64,000 nucleotides of DNA from Prevotella sp. MGM1. Its GTDB lineage: Bacteria; Bacteroidota; Bacteroidia; Bacteroidales; Bacteroidaceae. The translations under genes and the position numbers were made by a program. The notes beneath the pieces were generated by a model. It searched no databases. It saw nothing but the letters and a program-made list of their open reading frames with translations, and had not been told where the DNA came from. The stretch covers positions 1 to 64,000 of the forward strand of contig NZ_BEWV01000177.1 of the NCBI RefSeq assembly GCF_002933775.1, given 5' to 3'. This document shows positions 59,465-64,000 of this stretch, piece after piece. The first letter of the stretch is position 1. Each line of letters begins with the position of its first letter.

Positions 59465-60553
59465 TTATTTAATTCCTTTCGCAACTCTTTTAAATTTAAC
59501 AAGGAAATTAGCCCAAGCCTCATTAGGGAGAAGTTTTCTGTATTTTCTATACTGTCTCCAATGCAATGGCATTGCCATAATTTTTTGCCTGACAAAACCG
59601 ACATTTCCTTTAAACGCAAATCGCTTTTTTCCAAAATTACCACCGGTCCAGATATCATCTACAATTATATCTGCTCCAAAAGAAGAAATATCAAAAGGTA
59701 TTTTGTCTCTCGATAATCCAAGTTCGGCAAACAACACATAACCAATAGCTGCCGACATACGTTTAAGCCCTATCTGAGACAAATAACTATTCAAAGCATC
59801 TCTATCCAAACAACCAATCAGTTCTTGATCATTCAATACCATAGCAAGGTCACACATCTGGCGCCAGCCAAGACCTTCATTTAACAAATGGTACTGTATA
59901 TGGATTATAAGGTGAAGAACGGTCAACGTAGCTGGCAAAGTCCTGACCCTTGCTTCTCTGATTTTTACAAAACTCCCATTTTCCTCAATAAGCTCATCTT
60001 GTATAATCTTTTGTAAATTATCCTGATAACAACCATATTGCATATCCGCTAATCTAATATGGTTTTCCACTATGACGTCTTCCAACCTATATGCCAGTTC
60101 TTTTTCATTCACCACAGAATAGCACCTTGTATTATTCTTTGCCCAAATATTTGCCTTTTCAACTTCTTGTCTTTTTGTGAAAAACAGGTCTATATCTCCT
60201 GCCTGACGATGATCAGGATAAGGATAGTAACGGCTTATCACCTGCCCTTTTATTACCATCGGGCTTAATCCCATGCTGGAAAAAAAATCACATATATGAA
60301 TTACTCTATTGTCAAGTTTTTCGTTTTGAATTTCTATCTGTCTTACCAACATCACCCACCTTAACTTCAAGATTGTTGCCGGTTGTAAACCTTGTGGCAA
60401 TAACTCCACTCCATCCAAAACGACTCCAACAACAGTTTGCACCACTGACATTTGAAACAAAGCATCCCAATCTACATGTTCAAACAGACGTAAATCGGGT
60501 GATACTCTATACATTCCACATCTAAGAAGTTCCAAAAACTGCTCATTAATCAT
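59465..60553 (-). CDS. nucleotidyltransferase-family protein (NTP_transf_5-like)
   Basis: 362 residues. GLSPMVIKGQVISRYYPYPDHRQAGDIDLFF carries the polymerase-beta-type nucleotidyltransferase motif (G...R.GDIDL) found in the PF14907 family, which often occurs in exopolysaccharide and peptide-modification loci. A helical C-terminal half follows (LTVLHLIIHIQYHLLNEG). Target unknown. ATG at 60553 (MINEQFLELLRCG) is preferred; 60586 is also open. More AT-rich than the MATE gene it converges on. Confidence 0.82.
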   Translation of the reverse strand: MINEQFLELLRCGMYRVSPDLRLFEHVDWDALFQMSVVQTVVGVVLDGVELLPQGLQPATILKLRWVMLVRQIEIQNEKLDNRVIHICDFFSSMGLSPMVIKGQVISRYYPYPDHRQAGDIDLFFTKRQEVEKANIWAKNNTRCYSVVNEKELAYRLEDVIVENHIRLADMQYGCYQDNLQKIIQDELIEENGSFVKIREARVRTLPATLTVLHLIIHIQYHLLNEGLGWRQMCDLAMVLNDQELIGCLDRDALNSYLSQIGLKRMSAAIGYVLFAELGLSRDKIPFDISSFGADIIVDDIWTGGNFGKKRFAFKGNVGFVRQKIMAMPLHWRQYRKYRKLLPNEAWANFLVKFKRVAKGIK

Positions 60554-60846
60554 AATTACAGGCTTATTATCGGGAAAGACGGTCATACAAAAGAGAATTA
60601 AAGCAATAGAAAATAATTGTATATAAGTTACTTACATCTCTTTCCGACTCAGGGCGCATTAAACCATATAATTGATATCCATCTGGATAAAGGGTAATAA
60701 TATTATGTTATAAAAAGAACGAAAAAAGCACATCACAAGCCTTTAATCACAACAAATCTATTGCAGTGTTCTTTTATTTAGCATTTTTCAAGACATTCAT
60801 TATGCTTAATCCGATGAAAAATATTATATTCGCAAAATAAATCAAT

Positions 60847-61234: not shown

Positions 61235-62344
61235 TCATGTCGTTTCGGCTTCATAAACATACCTTGTTTGCTGTGCTATTATATTCCAATCATATGAGCC
61301 CATATCATAATTCACCCACGGCACCTGTCTCAGCATGACATCACACAAACGGTCGGCCAGCATCTCCACATCTCCCAAACGGAAATAGCATTGTTCAGGA
61401 AGACCGACTTCCATATTGGCGGGAATATCGCTCACTACTACGGGCAGGCCGTAGCTCATGGCTTCAAGCAAAGCGATGGGCAGCCCCTCGTGCGAAGACG
61501 GCAGTACATAGCACATGGCGTTGGTGAGCAGTGAATGAAGCCTGACGCCTTTGACAAAGCCCGTAAGCACAACACCGTTATCGAGAGCCATGCGTTTAAG
61601 CCGACGGGAGTAATCGTCTTCAAAGTCGGTGTCACCGGCCAGTACAAGACGCGTATTGCCGTCTATGACACCCCGTTCTTTCAACATCGCAAATGCCTCG
61701 ACCAAGTCATGAAGGCGCTTTTCGGGAACGAAACGGCACATACCAAGGATATATCTGTTTTCCTCAATGCCAAGAGAACGGAAATAATCTGGAGCGGAAC
61801 ACTTTTCGGGAGCGGGAACACCGTTCGATATCACATGCACGCCACGAGTGCGGCCGTACTTATCGGCAATCAACCGCTCTATCACACGGGAAATAACGAT
61901 GACATCGTCAGCAAACATGCAGCCCATCCGCTCACCGAGTTTCAGCATGGCCTTAGCCACTATCCCCCACTTGTCACGGTCATAATCGGGACCGTGATGA
62001 GTGAAAACGACTTTCAACCCTCTCATCTTGGCATACGGAACAAGCAACGCCGGGCCTATGGCATGGATATGGACAATGTCTGCCCCACACCTTTTCGCCT
62101 CGTTTATTGCCCTGAACGTATGTATTATGGCCTCAAACGACTTCTTCTTCGGCGTATCTACGTCTACGAGATGCACGCCGTTCCACCCGGTAAGCGGCTC
62201 ACGTTCGGTCACGTAGTTCTTCCGGCGGGCCACTGTAACGTCGACACCCATGGCCGCTATCCTTGGGAACAGTTCCTCGCAATGGGTCTCCACGCCACCC
62301 ATTATATTGGGAATGCCGCGCGTACCGGTAACAAAAACCTTCAT
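61235..62344 (-). CDS. glycosyltransferase family 4 (GT-B) protein
   Basis: 369 residues. N-terminal GTRGIPNIMGGVETHCEEL (donor/acceptor Rossmann domain), DIVHIHAIGP, THHGPDYDRDKWG, and C-terminal HEGLPIALLEAMSYGLPVVVSD, the nucleotide-sugar-binding signature of GT4 enzymes. A cytoplasmic enzyme for extracellular polysaccharide or O-glycan assembly. ATG at 62344 is chosen: homology begins at MKVFVTGTRG. Downstream of the acyltransferase on the same strand, with a small opposite-strand gene between. Confidence 0.92.
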   Translation of the reverse strand: MKVFVTGTRGIPNIMGGVETHCEELFPRIAAMGVDVTVARRKNYVTEREPLTGWNGVHLVDVDTPKKKSFEAIIHTFRAINEAKRCGADIVHIHAIGPALLVPYAKMRGLKVVFTHHGPDYDRDKWGIVAKAMLKLGERMGCMFADDVIVISRVIERLIADKYGRTRGVHVISNGVPAPEKCSAPDYFRSLGIEENRYILGMCRFVPEKRLHDLVEAFAMLKERGVIDGNTRLVLAGDTDFEDDYSRRLKRMALDNGVVLTGFVKGVRLHSLLTNAMCYVLPSSHEGLPIALLEAMSYGLPVVVSDIPANMEVGLPEQCYFRLGDVEMLADRLCDVMLRQVPWVNYDMGSYDWNIIAQQTRYVYEAETT

Positions 62345-62522: not shown

Positions 62523-63586
62523 CTAACCAAATTTAGCAATAATTCCTTTCAAAAGATAATGTTTCATGACATGTGAGAAAACGATCGTACCGGTCATTAC
62601 AGACACCGATACAACGATATACAGACAATCGGTATCGGATATAAAATTCTCCAAATGAAGTCGCTCGACCACACGAAACATTACCATGTGGCAAAGATAT
62701 ATTTCCATCGACAGTCCGCTGACATATTTTACGACCCTGTTGTTGAACAATATATTGTCGGAACCGATGGCATATATAAGCACGATTGTGAAAAGAACAA
62801 GTTCGCTAAGTAACAGGACAAAACTTGAATACTCCCATAAAGACAACACAAAAAACGTCAAAATACCCGCCAACATAATGCAACAGGCCATCCGATTGTG
62901 TCTATTCACAAATAAAGACAAAGGATTGCGATAAAGAAACACAAGCCCTCCGGCCATGAACAATGGCATACAATAAACAATATTTCCTCGCCCAATAACA
63001 GGCTCTGGACTCTCTCCATTGAAAGAGTACCGTGTAGCCATCCAAACCAACAACAATGTCGCGACAAGAACAATCCAGCCTCTACGCCTGTTGTCCATCA
63101 AAAAGACAAAGAAAGGGAACAACATATAGAAAACAAACACGACCCCCAAGAACCACCCTACTCCGATAACTGAAATATTAACGTCAGGAAGCAGACCAAA
63201 ACACAATGTCATATCCGCAAACATCTCGTATAAAGAATACATACTCGGTGATATAATCACATCAAGAACACAAAGAGAAGCAAAGAACGGAAGTATTCTT
63301 ATATATCTTTTCTTATAAAAAGAATTGGGAGTAATCAAACCGGCTTTAATCCGCTCATAATATCCGCAGCAAAGCGAAAAACCGCTTACGACCATGAATA
63401 ACAGTGTAAAATCGGTAAACCACGGTATCAACGTGACAGTAAAATAGTTTTCAGACGGCTTCACAGAGATGTTTGCCAATACGTGCATTATCACTATTCC
63501 AATCGCCGCATACGCTCTAAGACCGTCAAGTGAACCGTAACGTTCAAGACGCTCTGCCTTTTCGGGGGGGTAAATTTATTTAACAT
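62523..63586 (-). CDS. acyltransferase (OafA/YrhL type), start out of frame at a G7/C7 tract
   Basis: About ten transmembrane helices. The family N-terminus YGSLDGLRAYAAIGIVIMH (catalytic His) is intact in the frame that ends at 62523, but that frame has no start codon before a stop upstream. ATG at 63586 (ATG TTA AAT AAA TTT A) lies in another frame, separated by seven C (63564-63570). Eight C would join them into a 354-residue protein; as sequenced, translation from this ATG stops after 30 codons. A weak internal GTG at 63494 would omit the conserved N-terminus. It would O-acetylate a surface glycan. Phase-variable or newly broken gene. Confidence 0.82.
63564..63570. repeat. homopolymeric G7/C7 tract near the acyltransferase start
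   Basis: Seven consecutive G on the plus strand (C on the coding strand), six codons after the ATG. A change of one base switches the reading frame, the usual design of slipped-strand phase variation. Confidence 0.7.
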
Positions 63587-63713
63587 AAGTACTCTGTTGT
63601 TATTATAGAAAACAGCGTGACAATCAATAATGGTCACACAAAACCTATTTCAATGCAAACAATGGCTTTTGCCATATCAAAAGCCACCAAACGCTGCATA
63701 CGAAATAGGAATG

Positions 63714-64000
63714 TTACTTTATTTCAATCTCACGGTCTGTCTCAGCCTTCGTCGCCTCATAACCCTGACCGGCAACGTCGTCATTGACGATATCTTCGCC
63801 ACGCCTGCCACGCAGAGCCTCTTTGGACACATCTGAAAGTCCGTTGTTTATGTCTGCATGTAAATCGCAAGTGGAGCAACGATCAAGCTGCTCTTTGGTC
63901 ACTTTTCCGTCACGATAGTCGCAACACACCTTGTTTTCATACATGGAGTATTTGCCACCTAACAAAGACTTCAACTTATGCTTCAAAACCCAAAGTAGCG
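63714..64000 (-). CDS. C-terminal part of an unidentified protein (runs off the window)
   Basis: At least 94 C-terminal residues; the frame stays open to the right edge (LLWVLKHKLKSLLGGKYSMY...). It contains a cysteine cluster (VCCDYRDGKVTKEQLDRCSTC) and a charged, acidic tail. Probably the end of a polysaccharide-locus protein given its position, but the family is not recognisable from this fragment. A TTG at 63986 is a possible but unlikely internal start. Confidence 0.55.
   Translation of the reverse strand, partial: LLWVLKHKLKSLLGGKYSMYENKVCCDYRDGKVTKEQLDRCSTCDLHADINNGLSDVSKEALRGRRGEDIVNDDVAGQGYEATKAETDREIEIK

Follow-up and report, generated by a model that had tools for sequence, protein, structure and literature searches.

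A putative phase-variable acyltransferase-3 gene with a C7 tract in a predicted surface-polysaccharide locus of Prevotella sp. MGM1

The window, i.e., the whole 64-kb stretch of DNA that was analysed, contains an acyltransferase-3 (AT3) gene that is very probably a translational phase-variation (contingency) locus, in which the gene is switched by a C tract. The data suggest a genuine on/off switch and not a dead gene. Slipped-strand mispairing during replication would lengthen or shorten a C run six codons past the ATG and would shift the reading frame, and only some tract lengths would bring the ATG in frame. The sequenced cell, with a tract length of seven, would be in the OFF state and would make a product of 30 residues, and a population would then be a mixture of cells that make the acyltransferase and cells that lack it, and hence of cells with and without the respective polysaccharide modification. 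The full-length product is predicted to be a membrane acyltransferase-3, which most likely adds an acetyl or another acyl group to the surface polysaccharide of the operon. From the sequences we infer slippage as the mechanism and reversible switching in this strain, as well as the substrate, the phenotype, and its benefit.

The reading frames at the C7 tract

The features of the gene are as follows:
63584..63586, minus strand, ATG start codon of the putative phase-variable gene, 16 nt upstream of the tract (distance and phase were scored)
63564..63570, minus strand, C7 tract (G7 on the plus strand), the proposed slippage site
63494..63586, minus strand, OFF reading, a 30-residue product followed by a stop codon that ends at 63494
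62523..63575, minus strand, intact acyltransferase-3 frame of 350 codons plus stop, out of phase with the ATG
63492..63494, minus strand, GTG, the first start codon in the acyltransferase frame, inside the R-x10-H motif
63483..63518, minus strand, R-x10-H motif of AT3 proteins, with Arg15 and His26 of the 345-residue frame from 63560

The frame that contains SLDGLRAYAAIGIVIMH is open from 63575 to 62526 (350 codons) and is terminated by the stop codon at 62525-62523. Between 63575 and the motif it has neither an ATG nor a GTG nor a TTG, and a start at the GTG at 63494 would cost the R-x10-H motif its Arg. The first-pass annotation had described an intact N-terminal motif in a frame without a start codon, and this was confirmed, the first start being the GTG inside the motif. 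It had also pointed to a good ATG out of phase, to a C7 at 63564-63570, and to a 30-codon product of the C7 form; positions and description turned out to be correct, and the ATG frame translates to 30 residues.

The tract begins in codon 6 of the ATG frame on the minus strand, and the frame break coincides exactly with it. The repeat has a unit that is not divisible by three, is located downstream of the start codon, and breaks the frame. No second defect besides the frame break was found in the 345 codons of the window gene. The C7 is the sole C or G run of at least seven in the 64 kb, and about 2.4 are expected under a first-order Markov model. The tract length by itself is unremarkable; the frame break at the tract and the recurrence in relatives exceed chance. 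Two points count against a switch: a tract of seven C is rather short for slippage, and the host genome contains a full-length mutS, which is expected to make slippage less frequent and thus counts somewhat against rapid switching at C7.

The encoded protein

The acyltransferase frame matches almost the full length of PF01757 (Acyl_transf_3), with an E value of 2.9e-31 and 109.2 bits versus a curated cut-off of 31 (residues 9-328). The R-x10-H motif, which belongs to the first membrane helix, has been described for AT3 proteins (PMC9833829), and among 29 aligned rows H26 is invariant and R15 is conserved in at least 90%. At the third membrane helix, the RXXR motif takes the form RYIR (residues 85-88); R85 is invariant in the 29 aligned rows, and the second Arg is a Lys in some of them, e.g., in L012. 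An AlphaFold2 model based on the family alignment has a pLDDT of 86.9 and ten helices of at least 16 residues. The best structure match in the PDB is 8jl4, titled only "membrane proteins", and human HGSNAT is named in the titles of three of the top five. These four entries have probabilities of 0.95-1.00 and a TMq of about 0.5, but none reaches an E value of 0.001 or below, and the model is compatible with a transmembrane acyl-transferase fold, short of proof. The PDB matches from a search of sequences with the profile, namely complex I subunits with an E value of 0.018 at best, were weak and were judged to be due to chance. The predicted enzyme probably decorates bacterial surface sugars, and membership in the family suggests O-acetylation as the specific modification.

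The genomic neighborhood

The neighbors of the acyltransferase gene are encoded on the same strand:
63714..64000, continuing to 64925 of the contig, minus strand, radical SAM/SPASM protein, upstream neighbor
61235..62344, minus strand, GT4 glycosyltransferase with DUF1972, downstream neighbor
59465..60586, minus strand, NTP_transf_5 protein, further downstream

The upstream genes on this strand encode, in addition to the radical SAM/SPASM protein, LicD, an epimerase, an IspD-like cytidylyltransferase, a GT2, Wzy_C, a hexapeptide transferase, and a flippase-like protein. By its gene content the surrounding operon looks like a surface-polysaccharide locus, and the surface-glycan target that had been proposed from the window is backed by the flippase, Wzy_C, GT2, LicD, IspD, epimerase, and GT4 genes.

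The neighbors of some of the relatives were scanned. Radical SAM/SPASM and GT4 genes are present in L002, L006, L007, L012, and L031, a capsule-synthesis protein is encoded in L011, and further PF01757 genes are found in L002 and L040. The trio of radical SAM/SPASM protein, acyltransferase, and GT4 recurs in varying order in polysaccharide loci of Bacteroidota and Bacillota. Some neighboring genes also carry tracts, namely a PF01757 gene with a G9 in L008 and a GT2 gene with a G9 in L085. Two hexapeptide acetyltransferase-like genes have a C8 (L055:1829-2428, minus strand) or a C11 (L011:2571-3122, plus strand) near their 5' ends.

An invertible promoter was also considered. The inverted repeats around 63449-63938 are short or imperfect and, as judged from the repeats, do not resemble those of such an element; among the perfect pairs the longest are a hairpin of 9 nt and a pair of 8 nt, 50 nt apart.

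Relatives of the gene

A scan of GTDB contigs yielded 43 loci. Forty-one of them were examined, and L043 and L044 (Brevibacterium, 28% identity) were left out. Profile searches of whole genomes added seven new loci once duplicates had been removed; seven further loci duplicated earlier ones and were counted once, and L078 is the window's own copy. Together with the window, 49 rows were included in a maximum-likelihood tree, and 26 of them, the window among these, form one Bacteroidota-type clade (support 100/99). L003 is titled Christensenellaceae, but was placed among the Bacteroidota in the tree and was counted there; it is probably a misbinned contig. The 23 other homologues belong to the Bacillota by title, plus one from the Mycoplasmatota and one that is unlabelled. 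All comparisons rest on one genome per species.

A single-sequence search of 60 relatives, own genome included, returned the own copy only. With a profile the acyltransferase family was found in 4 of 393 genomes of the order, in 8 of 399 of the taxonomic family, and in 5 of 398 of the genus (the latter two with the own genome included), and in one of the five genomes of one small family. The low numbers for genus and family indicate that the acyltransferase family is dispensable. No relative was found in the viral contigs searched, and a phage origin is thus unsupported. The nearest full-length relatives of the window gene are about 60% identical in protein, and a near-identical relative in the ON state is not among them.

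The 5' tract in Bacteroidota-type loci

Counting the window, 16 of the 26 Bacteroidota-type loci have a tract of six to ten C or G just upstream of the motif. It is a C6 in L002 and L091, a C7 in the window, L005, and L007, a C8 in L003, L085, and L090, a C9 in L004, L006, L010, and L011, a C10 in L008 and L014, a G8 in L088, and a G9 in L017. At the run density of the same loci, 0.103 per kb, only 0.27 tract-bearing loci would be expected for segments of 100 nt. The enrichment has a P of 7e-26 (4e-24 for 15 of 25 loci without the window), which overstates independence, because the loci are related. The presence of the tract requires seven changes on the tree. The remaining ten loci (L009, L013, L016, L019, L020, L027, L029, L081, L086, and L092) lack it, and therefore the family does not require the switch. 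For L086 only 87 residues went into the tree, and this locus was scored as having no tract.

The phase could be scored for 15 of the 16 tract loci, the sequence of L010 beginning at its tract. An ATG is in frame with the motif in nine (ON) and out of frame in six (OFF), three for each wrong phase. The state requires six changes on the tree, which is the maximum possible for six OFF rows. In all six OFF loci the downstream frame is intact, and the break is always at the tract. The two loci L004 and L090 are 96.7% identical over 1144 nt, and they differ by 38 substitutions and a single indel. This indel is located in the tract, so that L004 has a C9 and is OFF and L090 has a C8 and is ON. The scored codons of this pair contain 17 synonymous and eight non-synonymous changes (dN/dS 0.15).

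The proposal of a phase-variable acyltransferase, which had been made from the window, is supported by the 16 tracts in 26 loci and by the nine ON and six OFF states. The first-pass annotation had also considered an invariant C7 accompanied by other inactivating changes; in the relatives the lengths vary from 6 to 10, ON and OFF states are mixed over the tree, and the OFF frames are otherwise intact. An alternative view is that the gene is a recently inactivated pseudogene, the tract of which has mutated once, and that it is on its way out. This would fit to the OFF state in the window, to the few genomes that carry the family, and to the internal stop of L086, which shows that dead copies exist. 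However, it does not fit to 345 codons without a second defect, to six OFF loci that are all broken at the tract and nowhere else, to the dN/dS of 0.15 for the OFF/ON pair L004 and L090, or to the presence of three types of repeat within the family, and it is unlikely. Phase variation is the preferred reading.

A separate observation concerns the genes next to L004 and L090. In both loci a second PF01757 gene precedes the tract-bearing acyltransferase gene, and it is broken at a G7 in one (L004:924) and open with a G8 in the other (L090:1003), so that both neighboring PF01757 genes differ in state between these near-identical loci.

Tracts at other sites of the family

Nine of the 23 other homologues contain an internal tract, a G6-G9 at about codon 255 that precedes the last of the conserved blocks. 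It is in frame in L012, L015, L024, and L028 (four intact genes) and out of frame in L026, L030, L031, L033, and L040 (five truncated genes), and on the tree only two changes of state are needed for these four ON and five OFF rows. Within the gene the indels between L030 (G9) and L031 (G7) are confined to the tract (two G) and 6 nt at the 3' end. For L012 and L026 the one-base difference at the tract is the only indel in 1115 nt. Variation of the tract with the rest of the gene intact is thus found in L004/L090 as well as in L030/L031. In L022, titled Clostridium sp., nine perfect CAGAG units are present at the 5' end, and the ATG is out of phase.

Therefore, one enzyme family has mono-nucleotide tracts at two sites and on either strand and, in addition, one pentanucleotide array. 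We read the repeated tracts at different sites as a sign of convergence under selection for switching. Because slippage tracts recur at different sites of the family, phase variation is favored over a dead gene, a sequencing error, or a programmed frameshift.

A sequencing or assembly error would mean that the true tract length differs and that the gene is always ON. The genome is a draft in 225 contigs, and Illumina error rates have been reported to be high in polyC and polyG of eight or more (PMC4235727). In the same study 22 of 31 meningococcal tracts were located at contig ends, and L010 likewise begins at its tract. But the C7 is shorter than the eight named there (PMC4235727), and both wrong frames occur, also in strain-titled records (L006, L030, L033, and L031, which has an internal tract and a title coverage of 653). 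The latter point also answers the possibility of a sequencing error raised by the first-pass annotation, as far as the relatives are concerned. Furthermore, an error would leave unexplained why a slippery tract is kept at the site in 16 of 26 loci, and we regard it as very unlikely.

A last alternative is that the C7 form yields the full-length protein, either by programmed ribosomal frameshifting at the C run or by slippage during its transcription. By the rules for slippery sites the run could act as a slippery heptamer for a -1 shift. However, a fixed phase would be expected, and all three phases are seen (9, 3, and 3 of 15); also the internal tracts are in frame in some loci and out of frame in others. 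Frameshifting is extremely improbable, and phase variation remains the preferred explanation.

The internal-tract alleles of Faecalibacterium, Hominifimenecus, Lachnoclostridium, Mediterraneibacter, and Clostridium (L012, L015, L026, L030, L031, and L033) have DNA identities of 83-94%, which suggests recent horizontal transfer among gut Bacillota.

C and G runs in the host genome

The host genome has 2.95 Mb in the 225 contigs and is 92% complete. The host shares its GTDB genus with Prevotella sp. P2-180, and a genus mate, G857, carries L089, which is contained in L006. At least 49 (at most 51) C or G runs of seven or more are present in the host, and 27 among those listed have a length of at least eight, compared to 1.85 expected by extrapolation from shorter runs. 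Three of the seven PF01757 genes of the host have a run of at least seven, i.e., the window gene, one with a G11, and one with a G8, and the latter two are in frame. A region of contig C204 of G000 (33745-85900, L045-L047) contains 16 of the 49 listed runs, several of them in stretches without long open frames. A gene for a SusC-like TonB-dependent receptor (L056:2-2395, minus strand; G000 C221:59371) has its frame broken at a G10 just past the plug region and is possibly another phase-variable gene.

On the G strand, 10 of 48 host runs of at least seven are followed by TAA, compared to 69 of 3085 runs of three (examples in G000 are C84:11559, C208:40097, C215:3816, and C215:30564, and further copies are L100-L129). 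The sequence G8TAAAA occurs 273 times in 251 genomes of the taxonomic family, versus 64 times for the reversed control, and is more frequent than the control in 98 genomes and less frequent in 20. In 198 genomes of the order the numbers are 66 versus 24 (summed by hand). Among 30 copies that were inspected, many seem to be intergenic, and with regard to a possible role as a promoter element, weak shared flanks were seen. At least three of the inspected copies are in genes of the contingency type, two PF01757 genes and one DNA methylase gene broken at the run. The latter encodes an N6/N4 DNA methylase (PF01555; L120:776-2190, minus strand) and is possibly a phase-variable methyltransferase gene.

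It is possible, albeit somewhat doubtful, that gut Bacteroidales, which are usually discussed for their invertible promoters, have in addition a poly-G/poly-C contingency system that extends over the genome and is directed at surface-glycan genes, that the tracts have a DNA-level motif in common, G(8+)TAAAA, with a possible role in their seeding, stabilisation, or regulation, and that slippage switches arose repeatedly and independently in the AT3 family in two phyla, as 5' poly-C, 5' poly-G, internal poly-G, and 5' pentanucleotide. The proposed targets would comprise several AT3 acyltransferases, a glycosyltransferase, hexapeptide acetyltransferases, a DNA methylase, and a SusC-like receptor.

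Discussion

Phase-variable AT3 genes and poly-G switches of glycan genes are already known, and what appears to be new here is a putative homopolymer-controlled AT3 gene, in a family with an unusual degree of convergence. The repeat of neuO of Escherichia coli K1 is a heptanucleotide, and NeuO is not known to belong to the AT3 family. Like the modification proposed here, the O-acetylation of the K1 capsule is phase-variable, but NeuO is prophage-borne (PMC3046976).

Other parallels are found among the AT3 proteins. OafA of Haemophilus influenzae acetylates heptose III of the LOS, its phase variation is translational and operates via a simple repeat, and the gene is frameshifted in the Rd genome record (PMC9558356). 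However, by the title of reference 73 of that article, the repeat is a tetranucleotide, and the host is a gammaproteobacterium, whereas the present family has mono-nucleotide C or G tracts and one pentanucleotide array, in Bacteroidota and Bacillota. Salmonella OafB is an AT3 O-antigen acetyltransferase with phase-variable expression, but its control is epigenetic and methylation-dependent, and it has a fused SGNH domain (PMC9558356).

Two further systems resemble the present one in the tract. In Campylobacter jejuni a poly-G of eight or nine toggles the surface-glycan gene cgtB by a frameshift; in contrast to the AT3 gene, cgtB encodes a glycosyltransferase of an unrelated phylum, and mixed populations have been demonstrated (PMC6437147), whereas the present locus is known from genome sequences alone. 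In Bacteroides fragilis 638R one extra C frameshifts an acetyltransferase-related gene of the polysaccharide locus PSI/9, and the authors suggested slippage (PMC3090145). In this case, however, the run comprises only 4-5 C, a single strain comparison was made, and a conserved tract is not part of the account of that gene (PMC3090145). Our literature search, which left most subscription papers outside, revealed no AT3 gene of Prevotella-type bacteria or Clostridia that had been described as homopolymer-controlled.

The results hold a warning, namely, that such genes will be miscalled as pseudogenes in MAGs. Ordinary reads suffice to determine the length of so short a tract, and therefore the switch can easily be tested with metagenomes. 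The repeated origin of tracts in one family, in Bacteroidota as well as in Bacillota, points to a strong shared selection, for which phages, antibodies, and competitors would be candidate agents. If the proposed explanation is true, a commensal Prevotella-type bacterium has a random switch for the decoration of its surface polysaccharide, of a kind that has mostly been described in mucosal pathogens.
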